A DNA stretch of 43,321 nucleotides from Oscillospiraceae bacterium (GTDB lineage: Bacteria > Bacillota > Clostridia > Oscillospirales > Acutalibacteraceae), in NCBI GenBank assembly GCA_022508805.1, contig JAFLUM010000016.1, forward strand, positions 1 to 43,321, written 5' to 3'. Position 1 is the first letter of the stretch; each line of letters starts with the position of its first letter. The position numbers and the translations under genes are program-made. The notes under the pieces are model-generated. The model was not told the origin of the DNA. It saw only the letters and a list, made by a program, of their open reading frames with translations, and ran no database searches. Shown here one piece after another: positions 1,724 to 9,607 of this stretch.

Positions 1724-2689
1724 TCATTCAACTATTGCAACGCCAATCATTGCCCAATATCCATCACACCTCGCAACGACAATATACGATATTCCGTCGC
1801 TTAAAATATTTGCTCTGTGTCCTGCGGAATTCATCCAAGAGTCAAACGCTTGCTTAGGTGTTTTTGTGGCACTACCAACAATATTTTCATTGCAAGCAGC
1901 AAGGTTTGTAATGTTAGCTTTAGTTATACACTCACCTACTGCCGATATACCTCTTTTACCGTTTGGTCTTGTGTGGGAAAAGTTTTCAGTAATTTCTACT
2001 GCTCTTATATTTGCACCATCTTGTGCGACATCAAGATATTTTACCTCATTAAGACCCTCTGCTCGTCTTGCTTCGTTTACAAGGAAAAGGAACTCAAGGT
2101 ACTCAGACTTATTCCCCATAAACTTATCAGCATTATCGGCATCTCTGCTTTCTTCCCAACCACATTTTGAGCAAACTCGTTCTTGAACCTTTAATCTTAC
2201 ATCAGCCCAACTGCCGAATGAGTGGTTGCAGTCTCTCCAGTTCTCAGTCTTACCACACTTTGAACAGGTACGGTACTTATCAGCATAAGTCGCTTCGGTA
2301 GTACCCCACTTGTACTCGCTCCAAGAATGAGAGCAAGAAGTAGCGGAAGTACCCTTGTTAGAAGAACCACTGGAACTGCCCGTTGGAGTAGTTGCCTTTT
2401 TCGTAGTGGTTTCCGTATTACCTGTAGAAACAGCCTTTTTCGTGGTCTGTTCAGTCTGAGTAGGCTCAGTCACATTGTCCGTAATTTCATTAGTTGGTTC
2501 TTCAGACTGACTTTCATCTTCCACTGTATCCTCGTTGGGAACTTCAGCCGAAAGCGTTACCGTTTCAGACTGACTTACAGTTTCGCCCGTTTCAGTATTA
2601 ACAGTCTCTTTTTTCGTACAGCTTGTAAATATTGTTGCAAGCATTACAAGAGCGAGAGCAAGAGCAACTATTCTTTTTGTGTTTGTCAT
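1724..2689 (-). CDS. CAP (SCP/PR-1)-domain lipoprotein
   Basis: A 321-aa protein. Residues 1-24 are a lipoprotein signal with lipobox ATIFTSC (C24). Residues 25-115 are a low-complexity Thr/Glu/Ser linker. Residues ~118-185 carry two Cys/His-rich segments (CSHSW...CSKCG, then CNHSF...CSKCGW), resembling paired zinc ribbons. The C-terminal ~125 residues are a CAP domain: NEARRAEGL, NFSHTRPNGKRG, CNENIVG, SWMNSAGHRANIL and a final WAMIGVA. The His and Glu of the CAP cavity (SHTRP, NENI, GHR) are present. It is predicted to be anchored outside the membrane; the biochemical role of bacterial CAP proteins is mostly unknown. AGGGGG lies 7 nt before the ATG. It is monocistronic, with a promoter at 2731-2759 and a terminator at 1668-1699. 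It is probably element cargo. Confidence 0.88.
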   Translation of the reverse strand: MTNTKRIVALALALVMLATIFTSCTKKETVNTETGETVSQSETVTLSAEVPNEDTVEDESQSEEPTNEITDNVTEPTQTEQTTKKAVSTGNTETTTKKATTPTGSSSGSSNKGTSATSCSHSWSEYKWGTTEATYADKYRTCSKCGKTENWRDCNHSFGSWADVRLKVQERVCSKCGWEESRDADNADKFMGNKSEYLEFLFLVNEARRAEGLNEVKYLDVAQDGANIRAVEITENFSHTRPNGKRGISAVGECITKANITNLAACNENIVGSATKTPKQAFDSWMNSAGHRANILSDGISYIVVARCDGYWAMIGVAIVE

Positions 2690-2698
2690 ATCAATGCC

Positions 2699-2817
2699 CC
2701 CTATATATTGTGGTTTTTGTCCTACATTAACTTATACAGAAATCACATTAAAATGTCAACGGAGTTTTTCAGTCTGATGAACCGCAAAATCGGTCTGAGC
2801 CGTTGAAATATATAGGG
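2699..2817. repeat. Nested inverted repeats around the CAP-gene promoter
   Basis: CCCTATATATT at 2699-2709 is repeated inverted as AATATATAGGG at 2807-2817. Nested inside, CAACGG (2758-2763) pairs with CCGTTG (2799-2804). The outer left arm overlaps the ribosome binding site of the CAP gene and the inner left arm overlaps its -35 box. It could be an operator or cruciform-type element; no IS-like ORF lies between the arms. Confidence 0.4.
2731..2759 (-). promoter_or_regulatory. Sigma-A promoter of the CAP lipoprotein gene
   Basis: Minus strand: TTGACA (2754-2759), 17-nt spacer, TATAAG (2731-2736), about 40 nt before the start codon. Confidence 0.75.
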
Positions 2818-2904
2818 TTTCGCCATTTTAAAATTTTTTTATTTTTTTGCGGCGAACCGCTTTAGTAGCCCATTGGACTCATCCTTTCGTTGAAAATTTG
2901 CAAA

Positions 2905-2931
2905 TAAAAAAAGACCCACCAAAGTGAGTCT
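2905..2931 (-). terminator. Minus-strand intrinsic terminator, likely end of the toxin-type mRNA
   Basis: An 8-bp stem (AGACTCAC with GTGGGTCT) with loop TTTG, then seven T on the minus strand. The only minus-strand transcript entering from the right is the one from the promoter at 3232-3260. If that mRNA runs to here, it overlaps the whole convergent small RNA. Confidence 0.65.
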
Positions 2932-2942
2932 GATGAAACATA

Positions 2943-2971
2943 TTGACTTTTCACATTATGTAGCATATAAT
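2943..2971 (+). promoter_or_regulatory. Near-consensus promoter of the convergent small RNA
   Basis: TTGACT (2943-2948), exactly 17 nt, TATAAT (2966-2971). No ORF with a ribosome binding site follows for ~380 nt, so the transcript should be non-coding. Confidence 0.75.
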
Positions 2972-2976
2972 ATAGA

Positions 2977-3080
2977 CGAAACAAGGCAAACCGATAGACG
3001 GTTAGCCCTAAAGAGAACAGTAATAACCGCTATCTTTGAAGGGGACGGCGGTTATTACTATATACATCTACTTTTTTGTC
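2977..3080 (+). ncRNA. Candidate antisense (antitoxin-like) small RNA
   Basis: Starts ~6 nt after the -10 box at 2966-2971 and should end at the 11-bp hairpin 3020-3058 and the T-run at 3071-3077, giving ~100 nt. Its 5' part forms a small stem (AACCG with CGGTT, 2990-3004). It is transcribed toward and into the 3' end of the 21-aa peptide gene at 3068-3133, so it is antisense to the 3' region of that mRNA. It is named from layout and promoter only; no known RNA family was recognised. Confidence 0.5.
3020..3058. terminator. Large hairpin shared by two convergent transcripts
   Basis: A perfect 11-bp stem: GTAATAACCGC (3020-3030) with GCGGTTATTAC (3048-3058), 17-nt loop. It lies 9 nt past the stop of the peptide gene on one strand and near the 3' end of the small RNA on the other. 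The T-run is ~12 nt away on the plus strand and poor on the minus strand, so it may act partly as a stabilising 3' structure. Confidence 0.6.
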
Positions 3081-3133
3081 ATAAAGTAAACTATAAGTAA
3101 AACTAAGGTAAGATATAAAATAATCTGTTCCAT
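3068..3133 (-). CDS. 21-aa hydrophobic peptide, candidate type I toxin
   Basis: A 22-codon ORF beginning MEQIILYLTL and ending VYFMTKK. It is one predicted membrane-spanning helix (residues ~4-18) with a Lys-Lys C-terminus, the usual build of type I toxins and small holin-like toxins. The Fst/Ldr signature residues are absent, so no named family is claimed. AGGGGG-type SD (3141-3146) lies 7 nt before the ATG. Its own promoter is at 3232-3260, with a ~90-nt structured leader. A convergent small RNA (2977-3080) overlaps its 3' end. It could instead be a regulatory membrane microprotein. It lies between element cargo and the element's early operon, where an addiction module would help maintain the element. 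Confidence 0.55.
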   Translation of the reverse strand: MEQIILYLTLVLLIVYFMTKK

Positions 3134-3140
3134 AGCACTA

Positions 3141-3190
3141 CCCCCTTTTGATACAATCTCAAGAGGGCAATCCCTCTTGGATAAAGAGGG
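3141..3190 (-). promoter_or_regulatory. Leader with three alternative hairpins controlling the SD
   Basis: On the minus strand three segments appear in order: CCCTCTT (3184-3190), CAAGAGGG (3172-3179) and CCCTCTTG (3160-3167), followed by the SD tract AAAAGGGGG (3141-3149). Segment 1 pairs with 2 (7 bp). Segment 2 pairs with 3 (8 bp, loop ATTG). Segment 3 can pair with the SD tract (7 pairs, one G-U). The structures exclude each other, so folding order decides whether the SD is free. Confidence 0.5.
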
Positions 3191-3231
3191 CTGACCGCCT
3201 ACCGTTTAAGGCTCACCTTGTCTCAAAAAAT

Positions 3232-3260
3232 ATTATACTATATTTCGTGGTTACCGTCAA
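3232..3260 (-). promoter_or_regulatory. Promoter of the 21-aa peptide gene
   Basis: Minus strand: TTGACG (3255-3260), 17-nt spacer, TATAAT (3232-3237). The predicted start is near 3225, giving a ~90-nt 5' UTR. Confidence 0.75.
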
Positions 3261-3372
3261 CGAATTATAAACAAAAAGGGACTTTTACAGTCCTTTTTTT
3301 GTTTTTGCACAAAAATAAGCTCCCACAAAATTGAGAGTTGAATTAGTGAATTTCAACTTTGCCACAAATAGC

Positions 3373-3401
3373 AACCCCCCTCGCCGCAAAGCAAGGGGGT
3401 T
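3373..3401 (+). promoter_or_regulatory. Hairpin enclosing a GGGGG ribosome binding site
   Basis: AACCCCC (3373-3379) pairs with GGGGGTT (3395-3401); an ATG follows at 3406. The SD-like GGGGG is thus inside the stem. The hairpin has no T-run on either strand, so a terminator is unlikely. Confidence 0.4.
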
Positions 3402-3405
3402 CACT

Positions 3406-3624
3406 ATGAACAAATTCAAAAAAATTTTTGCAATGTTTCTGACAATTCTTATTATTGTCGTCACAGCAAATACAGCAAGAAAATCAAGTGGTTTATCGCC
3501 TACTCAATTTTCCAAGTATAGAATATCACAAACGGCATTTTGCCGCAATAGTGTCAAGCAAAAAAAGGTCGCCTTTTGGCGACACTTTGTTGCAATCGTT
3601 GATATAGAGCCATTTTGCTTTTAG
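3406..3624 (+). CDS. Possible small secreted or membrane protein (72 aa, doubtful)
   Basis: The ATG at 3406 follows a GGGGG SD. The N-terminus MNKFKKIFAMFLTILIIVV is a classic signal or membrane anchor. The rest is low in recognisable features, and a minus-strand terminator-like hairpin (3560-3583) lies inside the ORF, which argues against the C-terminal half being coding. An upstream in-frame TTG (3331) is not needed. No family recognised. Confidence 0.25.
   Translation: MNKFKKIFAMFLTILIIVVTANTARKSSGLSPTQFSKYRISQTAFCRNSVKQKKVAFWRHFVAIVDIEPFCF
3560..3583 (-). terminator. Terminator-like hairpin, minus strand
   Basis: GTCGCC (3568-3573), TTTT, GGCGAC (3578-3583); on the minus strand the stem is followed by C and seven T. 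It may be a second terminator for the operon ending at 3968. Confidence 0.5.
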
Positions 3625-3780
3625 AAAGAGTTAATTTAGGGGGCTTGACAAACTCAAATTACAGGGCTGATGCCTCTAAAAAGTACTAAAAAAATTTTAA
3701 AATTCACGATTTTTGGGTCTTTTTTGCTCGTTAGATTGAAATTGATTACATTGATAGTAAAAAATATTCTTTAAAATGCC

Positions 3781-3827
3781 CCTATAAAAACCAAAACCCA
3801 CAGTATGCCGTTCTGCGGGTTTTGGTT
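3781..3827 (-). terminator. Terminator of the rusA-like early operon
   Basis: An 11-bp stem AACCAAAACCC (3789-3799) with GGGTTTTGGTT (3817-3827) plus an inner 3 bp; on the minus strand the stem runs into TTTTTAT. It lies ~140 nt after the stop at 3968. Confidence 0.65.
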
Positions 3828-3856
3828 CTCGATGTAAAAATTTGGAAAGGAGTCGT

Positions 3857-3940
3857 ATGGAATGTCCACCGACAAATATATATTACCACAATAAGATATG
3901 CTCGTCAATACCTTTTGTAGTTTTTTTTACAATTTTTTAG
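3857..3940 (+). CDS. Possible 27-aa peptide ORF
   Basis: GGAAAGGAG lies 5 nt before the ATG at 3857, an excellent site. The product starts MECPPTNIYY and ends with a hydrophobic FVVFFTIF. A weak promoter (TTGATT, 17 nt, TATTCT near 3750) may exist. Nothing else supports translation; the SD may be fortuitous. Confidence 0.2.
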   Translation: MECPPTNIYYHNKICSSIPFVVFFTIF

Positions 3941-3967
3941 ATTTTTTGAGTATTGAACGACATTCCA

Positions 3968-4345
3968 TCAATGCAGGAATTCACTCTCGTCCAACTCTTC
4001 AATGACGATTTCAGTATGAGGGTGTTTTGTGTCAATACCGCCCAACTCCAAATTCAGTCTGATGTGGTAGAAAGAGTCGTCCTCAATAATCCCCATCTTT
4101 GTCAGACCATCAAGAATAAACTTTCCCGAATAGTTATCGGGGTCACGCCTCATACGATTTGGGAAATAATAGCGAAGAGTGACTTTTGCATACGGGATAG
4201 GTTTTTTGGGGCGTGGGCGGCATAACCAACCGATTATGTCCGCCCATTCCTTTTTCTTTTTCTGATACGCAATGTGATTGTCCCTGCCGATAAATTCATT
4301 GTTTGACGGTGGAACATAGTCGATGGTGTATGTATAAGTTGCCAT
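3968..4345 (-). CDS. rusA: RusA-family Holliday junction resolvase
   Basis: A 125-aa protein of the RusA crossover junction endonuclease family, which cuts four-way junctions arising in phage or element replication and recombination. Family motifs seen: VPPSNNEF near the N-terminus, RRDPDNYSGKFILDGL (metal-binding Asp residues) and IIEDDSFY. The length is normal (~120). The start is the ATG at 4345 because AGGAG lies 8 nt upstream; the in-frame GTG at 4354 is too close to it. It is the last gene of the leftward early operon, 11 nt after its neighbour. Confidence 0.85.
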   Translation of the reverse strand: MATYTYTIDYVPPSNNEFIGRDNHIAYQKKKKEWADIIGWLCRPRPKKPIPYAKVTLRYYFPNRMRRDPDNYSGKFILDGLTKMGIIEDDSFYHIRLNLELGGIDTKHPHTEIVIEELDESEFLH

Positions 4346-4356
4346 ACCATTCACTC

Positions 4357-4989
4357 CTAACCGTTAAGAAGTGTAATGCAGTCTATCCACAGGTCAACCT
4401 CACGGTCAGGAGCAAGCCAAAGGATTGAACCCAAGAGCTTAATCGCTTCATCACGCTTGCGGTAATATCCCCTTAATGAAATATTTAATCTCTTTACAAT
4501 TTCATCATATTTAACTTTTTTGGGACTAATATAAGTCCAGTAGAGAATTTTGTAGTATAGTTTCCCGTCCTCATTAGAGTTTTTTACAGCGGTAAGTGAC
4601 CTGTGAACCACATCAATAAGCTGTTTTGTTCGCTGAATATTGCGGAGCTTATCGTCAATGTTTGAGTCGTCGTATGCACTTGCAATATCGCATTTTTCCA
4701 CAAGGTCGTCAATGCTCTTAAACGGAACATTTAACTCCGACGCTATCTGGTGAGGTAGGTATTTGACAGCCAAAGCAATTGTTCGATAACTTTCCAAAAG
4801 TAATTTTGTGTTTCTGTATTCACGCTGCACTTTCATTTGCTTCACCTTCTGTAATTTATCGTCAGTAATCATTTCATCGGGTATCAGCCCTCGTTTTTGA
4901 AGAACTGAAATCAAATCATTGGTCTTAAATAATTCTTCAGAAGACCCAAAAGCCTCAATAGTCGGATTGTTAACGGAAACATTACTCAT
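4357..4989 (-). CDS. ArpU/sigma-region-4-like phage-type transcriptional regulator
   Basis: A 210-aa protein. The C-terminal part (KYDEIVKRLNISLRGYYRKRDEAIKLLGSIL) has the layout of the C-terminal helix-turn-helix of ArpU-like late regulators and sigma-70 region 4: a helix, the turn 'LNIS', a recognition helix with Y/R, then a tail. The N-terminal ~110 residues are helical and charged, without a recognised domain. Its ATG overlaps the stop of the upstream gene (ATGA), so translation is coupled. It probably activates late or transfer genes of the element; this is from family resemblance, not residue-level proof. Confidence 0.55.
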   Translation of the reverse strand: MSNVSVNNPTIEAFGSSEELFKTNDLISVLQKRGLIPDEMITDDKLQKVKQMKVQREYRNTKLLLESYRTIALAVKYLPHQIASELNVPFKSIDDLVEKCDIASAYDDSNIDDKLRNIQRTKQLIDVVHRSLTAVKNSNEDGKLYYKILYWTYISPKKVKYDEIVKRLNISLRGYYRKRDEAIKLLGSILWLAPDREVDLWIDCITLLNG

Positions 4990-7964: not shown

Positions 7965-9131
7965 ATGTCAAAAAAAATCAAAAAAGATTTGAGAAAGCAA
8001 AATGGCGAAGGAACTATCTATTTTTCTGAAAGTAAAAATAGATGGGTTGGTCAAGCAACTTTAGGCTTTCAAGAAGACGGTAAACCTTTTCGGGTTACTC
8101 GTTATGGTAAATCTCAAAAAGAAGTCAGAGATAAGTTAAAGCAAGCAGAGTATAAATATCAGACTGGAACTCTATTGGAAAAGAGTAAAATATCCATTTA
8201 TGATATTATTAAAGTTATGCTTGACGAGAAACTTGCTTTGAATGAAATTAAAGAGTCAACCTATTATCGGCACATTGAAACGCTTAAAAGTCTTGAAAGC
8301 ATTTCCCACATTCCCCTGCAACAGCTTAATGCTTTTCAGATAACTGCTTTTTTATCCACACGGACAGTCTATTCACAGTCGGTTATAAACAAGCAGTATG
8401 TAATGTTAAACAATGCGTTTGAGATTGCGACCAAGAAGAAAATTATATCAGAGAACTTTTTTCTCGATATAAAAAAGCCAAAGTCAGCAAAACAAACAAA
8501 AAAAGTCCGTGCTTTAACTTCGGACGAACAAGCAAAACTTTGTGATATTTTAAACAGAGAGAATATTACATATAAGCATCAAATGCTCCTATCAATGCTC
8601 ACTGGAATGAGAATGGGCGAAATCAATGCTCTGCGTATTGAGGATATAAACTTCACCTTTAAAAAAATAACCGTAAACAAAACAATTACACGGGGGCAGA
8701 AAGGAGAAGCTATATTAGACGAGCGTCCAAAGACCGATGCAGGAGAAAGAACTATCTCATTTACTGATAATGTTGAAAAGATACTCATACAATGCGTTGG
8801 CGACAGAACTGAGGGAATTCTTTTCCTGCGAAACGGGAAAATGATAACAACAAATCAAGTCAATTCCAAGTTTGATAGGATATTAGAGAAATACGATATT
8901 ATAGACACTTCAGTAAAAGGCAGTGTAAATCTCCATTCTTTAAGGCACACTTACGCTACAAGATGTATTGAGGCAGGTATGCCGCCGAAAGTCTTGCAGA
9001 AAATTCTCGGTCATACTGATATAAAAATCACGCTTAACACCTACTGCGATGTCTTCAACGCCTTTGAAAGTGAATATATCACAATGACCGATAACTATTT
9101 GTCAAAAATGGGCATAATTAAGCAGGCATAA
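7965..9131 (+). CDS. int: Tyrosine integrase of the element
   Basis: A 388-aa Tn916/phage-type tyrosine recombinase that inserts and, with an excisionase, removes the element. The N-terminal ~70 residues are an AP2-like arm-binding domain (NGEGTIYFSESKNRWVGQATLG). Next comes a SAM-like core-binding domain (~75-165). The catalytic domain carries R216 (TGMRMGE), K256 (RPKTDAG), H324 and R327 (LHSLRHTYATR), H350 (ILGHTDI) and Y360 (LNTYCDV), so all active-site residues are present. GAAAGGA precedes the ATG. It points at the tRNA-Leu gene 390 nt downstream, the usual position of an integrase beside its att site. Confidence 0.95.
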   Translation: MSKKIKKDLRKQNGEGTIYFSESKNRWVGQATLGFQEDGKPFRVTRYGKSQKEVRDKLKQAEYKYQTGTLLEKSKISIYDIIKVMLDEKLALNEIKESTYYRHIETLKSLESISHIPLQQLNAFQITAFLSTRTVYSQSVINKQYVMLNNAFEIATKKKIISENFFLDIKKPKSAKQTKKVRALTSDEQAKLCDILNRENITYKHQMLLSMLTGMRMGEINALRIEDINFTFKKITVNKTITRGQKGEAILDERPKTDAGERTISFTDNVEKILIQCVGDRTEGILFLRNGKMITTNQVNSKFDRILEKYDIIDTSVKGSVNLHSLRHTYATRCIEAGMPPKVLQKILGHTDIKITLNTYCDVFNAFESEYITMTDNYLSKMGIIKQA

Positions 9132-9179
9132 AAGGACAAAAAGTGTAAAAAAATAGAATAACGAGTTTGACAAAACAAC

Positions 9180-9230
9180 AGGACTTCCACAACGGCTATT
9201 ATGCCGAAATGAAAGTCCTATTTTTCTTTT
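9180..9230 (+). terminator. Terminator of the integrase gene
   Basis: AGGACTT (9180-9186) pairs with AAGTCCT (9213-9219), with an inner CGGC/GCCG stem, followed by ATTTTTCTTTT. Confidence 0.7.
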
Positions 9231-9303
9231 GATTTTTTTCAATTTACTTTAGCTATATAAAGTGCCCGTCAGCCCTTGATACAACTGGGGTTATAAAGGT
9301 TAA

Positions 9304-9385
9304 TTGCAGTACTATTGCAGTACTTTTTATTTTTCGCTTATGCTTTTTGGGAACATCGAAAAAAGTACTGCAATTTTACTGCAAC
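9304..9385. repeat. Two 11-bp tandem repeats facing an inverted pair (att/origin-like)
   Basis: ATTGCAGTACT is repeated head-to-tail at 9304-9314 and 9315-9325. The inverted copies are AGTACTGCAAT (9364-9374, exact) and TTTACTGCAAC (9375-9385, degenerate). Fit for integrase arm-type sites or iterons. No ORF lies here. Confidence 0.75.
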
Positions 9386-9400
9386 GCAACCTACTTTAAG

Positions 9401-9480
9401 TTACGCTAACTTACGCTAACTTACGCTTGCTGTTTTTAAGAAATGGCTATATAGAGCTATTTAGCGTTACTTAGCGTAAG
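9401..9480. repeat. Tandem 10-bp repeats with an inverted pair (att/origin-like)
   Basis: TTACGCTAAC at 9401-9410 and 9411-9420, with the variant TTACGCTTGC at 9421-9430. The inverted copies are TTAGCGTTAC (9461-9470) and TTAGCGTAAG (9471-9480). The intervening 30 bp are AT-rich. This second, different repeat family lies between the integrase and the tRNA att site. Confidence 0.75.
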
Positions 9481-9494
9481 TTAAAATAAATTAA

Positions 9495-9514
9495 GGACAC
9501 TTAAAAAAGTGTCC
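9495..9514 (-). terminator. Palindromic terminator after tRNA-Leu
   Basis: GGACACTT and AAGTGTCC form an 8-bp stem with a TTTT loop, 4 nt after the CCA end of the tRNA on the minus strand. If crossover is inside the tRNA, this terminator is supplied by the element. Confidence 0.6.
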
Positions 9515-9518
9515 TTGT

Positions 9519-9607
9519 TGGTGCCGGTGACCGGGGTCGAACCGGTACGGTATCGCTACCACTGGATTTTGAGTCCAGCACGTCTGCCAATTCCATCACA
9601 CCGGCAC
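9519..9607 (-). tRNA. tRNA-Leu (anticodon CAA), element attachment site
   Basis: An 89-nt gene with encoded CCA. The acceptor stem is GTGCCGG/CCGGCAC. The anticodon stem CTGGA/TCCAG encloses the loop CTCAAAA (anticodon CAA), and a long variable arm (GTGGTAGCGATACCGTAC) marks class II. The T-loop is GGTTCGACCCC. The 3' end faces the integrase and repeats, so the gene is the likely attB; the duplicated 3' segment at the element's other end would lie left of the window. Confidence 0.95.

Follow-up and report, generated by a model that had tools for sequence, protein, structure and literature searches.

Between positions 2943 and 3260 of the window, by which we mean the whole 43,321-nucleotide stretch analysed here (Oscillospiraceae bacterium, contig JAFLUM010000016.1), two sigma-70-type promoters face each other, and they are the top two among the 12 promoter-like sites in 2000-4500 (shuffled sequences: mean 6.0, sd 2.5). 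Both had been pointed out in an earlier note on this DNA, as had a minus-strand ORF for a membrane peptide of 21 amino acids; the promoters are present, and so is the ORF, behind a Shine-Dalgarno sequence. The features of the locus, with functions and transcription starts as predicted, are as follows:

2943..2971, plus strand: promoter of the putative antitoxin RNA, TTGACT-17-TATAAT, 11/12 consensus, kept in relatives
2978..3008, plus strand: 5' leader of the antitoxin RNA, from a presumed transcription start
2985-3007, plus strand: hairpin GGCAAACCG-ATAGA-CGGTTAGCC, part of that leader
3019..3059, both strands: central hairpin, the family's shared terminator, its U-runs missing in the window copy
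3260..3232, minus strand: promoter of the putative toxin gene, TTGACG-17-TATAAT, 11/12 consensus
3189..3225, minus strand: 5' leader of the toxin mRNA (ACAAGGTGAGCC...ACGGTAGGCGGTCAGCC), from a presumed transcription start, a near-copy of the antitoxin leader
3158..3167, minus strand: upstream anti-Shine-Dalgarno candidate CCCTCTTGAG
3149..3141, minus strand: Shine-Dalgarno sequence AAAAGGGGG of the toxin ORF, predicted to be mostly paired with upstream sequence
3133..3068, minus strand: predicted ORF of 21 codons for a hydrophobic, toxin-like peptide, MEQIILYLTLVLLIVYFMTKK
2978..3008, minus strand: presumed 3' tail of a long form of the toxin RNA, able to pair with the 5' leader of that RNA (-47.8 kcal/mol)
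2931..2905, minus strand: outer terminator of the toxin strand, stem 2931-2912 followed by TTTTTTATTT
3273..3304, plus strand: outer terminator of the antitoxin strand

The stem of the central hairpin, previously given as 11 bp, is 12 bp long (3019-3030/3048-3059) and closes a loop of 17 nt. In the window copy the U-run is lost on either side (TTACTATAT and TCTTTAGGG), so that either transcript may continue to the outer terminators on the minus (2931-2905) and plus (3273-3299) strands, the first of which had also been reported correctly. With no U-runs at the central hairpin and an outer terminator beyond it, the long form of the toxin transcript would be the expected product here; it is predicted to close end to end at -101.8 kcal/mol in total, with -47.8 kcal/mol for the leader-tail part. 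The plus-strand RNA had been put at about 100 nt: its hairpin is indeed the family's terminator, but with the U-runs gone its length is unsecured in the window copy.

The element that carries the window copy is prophage-like: it encodes an integrase, a RusA-like resolvase, and helix-turn-helix proteins, repressor-type ones among them, and a tRNA gene lies nearby. At 7965-9605 the integrase gene stands near the tRNA gene (9522-9605, minus strand), a possible attachment site; the element's other end lies beyond the contig. Directly beyond the module the element carries a gene for a CAP-domain protein (1724-2689, minus strand). Searches of phage and plasmid records with the window DNA gave no match. 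The mobile-element residence that had been proposed holds for this copy, but the relatives sampled do not establish it as a general rule: at 10 randomly drawn loci, the 20 nearest ORFs included a single match to a phage family and six ORFs without a Pfam match.

Related loci were collected in several ways. A DNA search of related genomes matched 8 of 59, the window's own genome counted, and when the matches were read out the module was present in several, with nothing in L005, L007, and L008. A 16-base leader pattern, allowing at most one mismatch, occurred at 27 places in 21 of 394 genomes of the order, against 16 matches for the reversed pattern that served as control; 22 of the 27 places show the full layout, one (L024) is cut by a contig end, and four (L021, L029, L035, L037) are chance matches. 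A covariance model of the antitoxin RNA (R1), built from 24 sequences, matched 44 of 398 genomes of the window's phylum at E <= 0.001, about one in nine of the sampled species genomes, with up to at least nine matches per genome (to judge from named relatives, the phylum is the Bacillota); on the window, itself among the input sequences of the model, R1 scores 81.3 bits over 2958-3060. A gapped pattern found at least 117 stretches in the species-genome collection, 116 of those listed being confirmed by the covariance model, and 20 stretches in viral contigs, all 20 of them confirmed. One Olsenella contig (L115) that matched the pattern but not the model was left out of the counts. Record titles among the matches listed include Lachnospiraceae, Oscillospiraceae, Phascolarctobacterium, Anaerovibrio, Selenomonadaceae, and others, as well as the common gut commensals Coprococcus comes (L062) and [Ruminococcus] faecis. 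A Phoenicibacter contig (L119), confirmed by the covariance model, comes from a genus that we take to lie outside the Bacillota.

The collected set comprised 214 matches, or 204 after removal of duplicates. Seventy-two of these gave no leader pair (some being further duplicates and some lacking a toxin), and 130 of the remaining 132 leader pairs have full flanks. On peptide score, 131 modules were reduced to 129 (L148 and L156 removed), in 122 of which the central hairpin could be placed. In all, 129 antitoxin-toxin pairings were assembled from 123 loci, two antitoxin genes being allowed to share one toxin (L164, L079). The layout, the leader motifs, and the peptide recur across this family, so the arrangement in the window is more than chance, and with that many pairings we regard a fortuitous meeting of unrelated promoters, hairpin, and ORF as a negligible prospect. 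Some genomes hold several copies of the module, some of them in tandem; in L164, L079, L142, L178, and L031 the copies stand side by side. At L164:10964-11205 and L079:3898-4225, two antitoxin genes seemingly precede one toxin gene. Five further places (L118, L043, L066, L081, L187) hold genes for antitoxin-like RNAs that face neither a toxin leader nor a peptide that could be recognised; these are possibly orphan antitoxins or decayed modules, and possibly act in anti-addiction.

The antitoxin RNA has a common order in the family: promoter, a leader of about 30 nt (consensus CGATAGACGGTTNGCC) that folds as a hairpin, a variable linker, and the terminator hairpin AATAACCGC...GCGGTTATT. In the terminator helix 98.1% of cells are paired, and four of the nine pairs have changes on both sides. 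The whole RNA structure contains 13 double-change cells against 3.2 in shuffled alignments, 11 of the 13 falling within the terminator helix, and a structure slid by three columns still contains 10, the maximum among the slid versions. The same hairpin serves the two directions unequally: at least six T among the nine bases that follow it are found in 91% of 122 loci in the antitoxin direction and in 43% in the toxin direction, with means of 6.8 and 5.0, respectively. To judge from these runs, it is the weaker terminator in the toxin direction. Outer terminators on the toxin strand are enriched yet a minority, being found at 24 of 117 loci, compared with 10 on the opposite strand and with 1 and 6 in distant controls.

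No Rfam family reached its cut-off over the module in the window and 12 relatives. A permissive scan of the window module returned weak matches, for example to ohsC, an antitoxin RNA of other bacteria, at 25.5 bits (cut-off, 50), and in 10 relatives likewise weak matches only, BsrG appearing once, below threshold, with an E of 0.5 (L028). The window peptide also reaches no family cut-off, so the earlier statement that neither peptide nor RNA belongs to a nameable family stands. We found no description of the family in the open-access PMC papers covered by the search, which is weak evidence of absence.

The toxin mRNA follows a fixed order as well: promoter, leader with ACGGTAGGCGGTTNGCC, Shine-Dalgarno sequence, peptide, and then the central hairpin from its other side. 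The peptides are 17-52 amino acids long (median, 28) and by a rough rule fall into a short class of at most 26 amino acids (40 of 129), a GYxxG class (47), and others including Hol_Tox-like peptides (42); K or R occurs within the last four positions in 123 of the 129. The earlier note had named loss of the peptide frame in homologous loci as an outcome that would speak against it, and proposed a search for conserved promoters and hairpins. The frame is kept, under purifying selection (pN/pS 0.22 over 32 disjoint ORF pairs), and convergent promoters, the overlap hairpin, and the hidden Shine-Dalgarno sequence recur. Among peptides of equal length, that of L073 is nearest to the window's (16 of 21 residues identical), and the two ORFs differ by seven synonymous and seven nonsynonymous changes over 13 and 47 sites.

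The upstream sequence is predicted to hide the Shine-Dalgarno sequence of the toxin mRNA. In 103 of 129 modules it is more paired than with shuffled upstream sequence (mean unpaired, 0.26 versus 0.36), and the presumed partner tracks the type of Shine-Dalgarno sequence: CCTCC occurs upstream in 27 of 57 GGAGG loci but in 2 of 54 GGGG loci, and CCCC in 25 of 54 GGGG loci but in 6 of 57 GGAGG loci. A primary transcript that cannot be translated is named as a hallmark of type I loci in the account of PMC6733600.

Could the peptide be a regulator instead of a toxin, a small ComI-like membrane protein under antisense RNA control? The NCBIfam model of the competence inhibitor ComI matched the peptides of 3 of 10 relatives (PepG1 matched 1 of 10), all of these matches lying below cut-off, and of those nearest ORFs at the 10 sampled loci that Pfam recognises, the majority are genes of ordinary cellular function. 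The copy numbers and tandem arrangements described above speak against such a regulator, as do the predicted hiding of the ribosome-binding site and the presence of Hol_Tox (PF16935) among relatives: Hol_Tox scored above cut-off in 2 of the 10 peptides scanned first, and in a second set of 10 it matched L167 (E 3.4e-9) and one more peptide at the cut-off, with no match among the GYxxG-class peptides of that scan. We consider a regulator of this kind unlikely. The Hol_Tox matches belong to modules on the same RNA scaffold, whereas the window peptide matches none of Hol_Tox, PepG1, and ComI; a PADLOC search with three peptides gave no match.

We read the window locus as a type I toxin-antitoxin module that works in the manner of par/Fst and TxpA/RatA without being a member of par, and put the probability of this reading, made from sequence alone, at roughly 0.8. 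In TxpA/RatA, as described in PMC3531473, the antisense RNA overlaps the 3' end of the toxin mRNA, and PMC6563280 presents TxpA/RatA and BsrG/SR4 of Bacillus subtilis as prophage-borne examples of such modules. The layout of the window has the putative antitoxin overlapping the 3' end of the toxin mRNA in the same way, but the window peptide is shorter, there is no Rfam match to RatA or BsrG above cut-off, and the toxin leader copies the antitoxin leader. The par/Fst locus of pAD1 is described in PMC7472228 and PMC4147584 as having convergent promoters, a shared bidirectional hairpin terminator, a small membrane peptide, and a Shine-Dalgarno sequence in a stem, with a stabilising 5' helix in RNA I. 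Convergent promoters, the membrane peptide, and, by prediction, the sequestered Shine-Dalgarno sequence are all found in the window. The central hairpin is kept there without its U-runs, and in relatives it reads as bidirectional, with T-runs more often in the antitoxin than in the toxin direction.

A strict par/Fst-type system, in which the RNAs pair at the shared terminator and through 5' direct repeats covering the ribosome-binding site, would account for these likenesses; we nevertheless hold it to be very unlikely. The par repeats (DRa/DRb) pair RNA II with RNA I at the translation start, whereas the leader repeats of the present family are inverted and identical in the sense direction. 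Direct leader-leader complementarity shows no locus specificity (own -20.2 versus cross -20.1 kcal/mol, z 0.02), nor do the non-overlapping parts of antitoxin and toxin RNA (z -0.15; own pairing stronger in 69 and weaker in 53 of 122 loci), and this lack of locus-specific direct pairing speaks against par-type direct repeats. Furthermore, the window peptide gave no Fst match at E up to 10, what it did match being a chance hit below cut-off, and the PXXXG motif is absent. The 29-amino-acid Lpt of Lactobacillus rhamnosus plasmids, described in PMC5608710 with convergent RNAs and direct repeats of the par kind, is similar in its small peptide and convergent RNAs and different in those repeats. 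The suggestion that the locus has the layout of par/Fst, BsrG, or TxpA is thus borne out as far as a type I layout is concerned, which recurs in the family, but membership in par/Fst and direct-repeat complementarity are absent.

What sets the type I module proposed here apart is the relation between its two RNAs. Within a locus the leaders are alike in the sense direction, forming inverted repeats in the DNA. The toxin leader is consequently the complement of what the toxin strand carries past the central hairpin, namely the antisense of the antitoxin leader. The antitoxin arm and its own toxin leader share 8.24 of 10 positions, whereas permuted partners share 6.27 (at most 6.58 in 2,000 permutations); the difference is smaller when the partners come from loci whose arm is most similar, at 8.24 versus 7.74 of 10, the own partner being higher in 86 cases and lower in 34. 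The bulge base after ACGGTT is identical between leaders at 117 of the 130 loci, where 5,000 permutations reached 90 at most, and in 57 of 63 representatives of less than 75% identity (best permutation, 46). For a first set of loci, defined by a leader at most two mismatches from CGGTAGGCGGTT, the leader pairs with its own tail at -43.3 kcal/mol and with those of other loci at -34.6 (mean z -2.01). Leader and tail therefore co-vary within loci. In L061 the conserved halves of the toxin leader are separated by an insertion with the potential for additional hairpins, and each half continues to match the antitoxin leader.

Such complementarity would allow a toxin transcript to fold back, its 5' leader pairing with its own 3' tail as a 5'-3' lock; from sequence data we hold this tentatively, at a little under even odds. 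Such a lock presupposes toxin transcripts that extend beyond the central hairpin. If each of these read-through transcripts is closed by the antisense tail it carries, the toxin leader, as a mimic, and the antitoxin leader would have to evolve in step. Type I control without fold-back would explain the leaders differently, their identity arising from concerted evolution, a shared 5' stabilising hairpin, or a protein site, with the mRNA ending at the central hairpin. We take this to be a serious possibility with the odds against it: the antitoxin leader is a conserved hairpin, the T-runs would let toxin transcripts end at the central hairpin in the 43% of loci noted above, and outer terminators are few, whereas leader-tail pairing beats the mirror pairing in 123 of 130 loci and falls behind it in 6, and the leader differences are biased in direction. 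Those compatible with G-U pairs outnumber the reverse by 115 to 32 within loci and 12,891 to 8,284 across loci; the asymmetry is weaker in the 63 representatives (40 versus 11, P 0.004, over the shortest segment compared; P 0.02 and 0.01 over longer segments) and may be partly due to the antitoxin's own hairpin. The mirror pairing is likewise locus-specific (z -1.54), so the direction of fold-back rests on the G-U pairs. A hairpin of the toxin leader itself finds no support as the source of leader similarity, since a leader's own arm brings it no gain (48 stronger, 55 weaker).

The same relation also appears with other leader sequences, which again argues against control without fold-back. Of 29 further loci, 5 share a leader with the first set and 5 carry the toxin-leader motif, and 22 do neither. 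In these 22 the own leader-tail pairing averages -37.0 kcal/mol, against -27.9 with other loci, the own partner being the best of all in 9, compared with 3 for direct antitoxin-toxin pairing; own pairing is worse than that with others in 5 of the 22 (L102, L139, L193, L143, L207), or in 6 of the 29 when L094 is included. Among 12 divergent loci the relation is found in seven (L189, L190, L192, L201, L205, L206, L209) and absent in five (L198, L203, L204, L207, L208), some of which lack a toxin gene. How strongly leader and tail pair shows no correlation with how weak the central terminator is (rho -0.09, P 0.31), and predicted access to the Shine-Dalgarno sequence is not lower in the long toxin form, which leaves it more open in 26 and more closed in 8 of 122 modules. 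An anti-Shine-Dalgarno element in the tail gave no signal (64 stronger versus 58 weaker). Pairing of the leader with an arm of the central hairpin (GGCGGUUA with UAACCGCC) was also considered and set aside; both sequences are conserved, and by eye the hairpin ignores changes in the leader.

Under the type I reading, then, the minus-strand transcript would encode a single-helix membrane peptide behind the hidden Shine-Dalgarno sequence, and the plus-strand RNA would be its antitoxin. The central hairpin, common to both RNAs, would probably make the first contact, and by analogy with TxpA/RatA and par the resulting hybrid would block or destroy the mRNA. A read-through toxin transcript would close on itself, leader to tail, and the fold-back would keep the full-length message locked or stable for as long as its 3' end stays untrimmed. 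In the cell, as we infer, the pairing would either act as this lock or simply stabilise the RNA, much as the 5' helix of par RNA I does. The hok mRNA of hok/sok is likewise held by a 5'-3' interaction. In aapA1/IsoA1 of Helicobacter, according to PMC6733600, the AapA1 mRNA is inactive through a long-distance 5'-3' interaction that is removed by 3' trimming. The present family resembles both in its toxin-strand 5'-3' complementarity, which co-varies within loci. In AapA1 and hok, however, the interaction occludes the ribosome-binding site, whereas here it would join an upstream leader to the antisense counterpart of the antitoxin leader, and the predictions give no support for occlusion by the tail.

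The kind of system is thus ordinary, type I, and what is unusual is the relation of the two RNAs in a widespread family outside Rfam. That the 5' end of the toxin mRNA mimics that of its own antitoxin, on one scaffold that carries at least three peptide classes in Clostridia and probably other Bacillota, is a proposal that we would back at nearly even odds. If real, the family is a large type I group that Rfam does not hold; it brings Hol_Tox peptides together with two unnamed classes of peptide on a single RNA scaffold, and offers many natural variants for testing how a toxin message stays silent during its synthesis. The fold-back, if true, would be a new regulatory logic for type I modules.

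Two individual copies deserve description. On the large plasmid of Lachnospira eligens ATCC 27750 (NC_012780.1; L218:2888-3660), a complete module, with a MATE transporter gene on either side, lies where the PLSDB gene table, which is incomplete, has no entry; this was the one complete replicon checked. In the window's own genome, contig C25 (L009:1490-1790) carries a second toxin gene with promoter, leader, and Shine-Dalgarno sequence, opposite which there is no full antitoxin (a weak model match only). The usual end of its ORF is missing, and the frame continues for 54 codons through a terminator hairpin identical to the outer one of the window (2931-2912).
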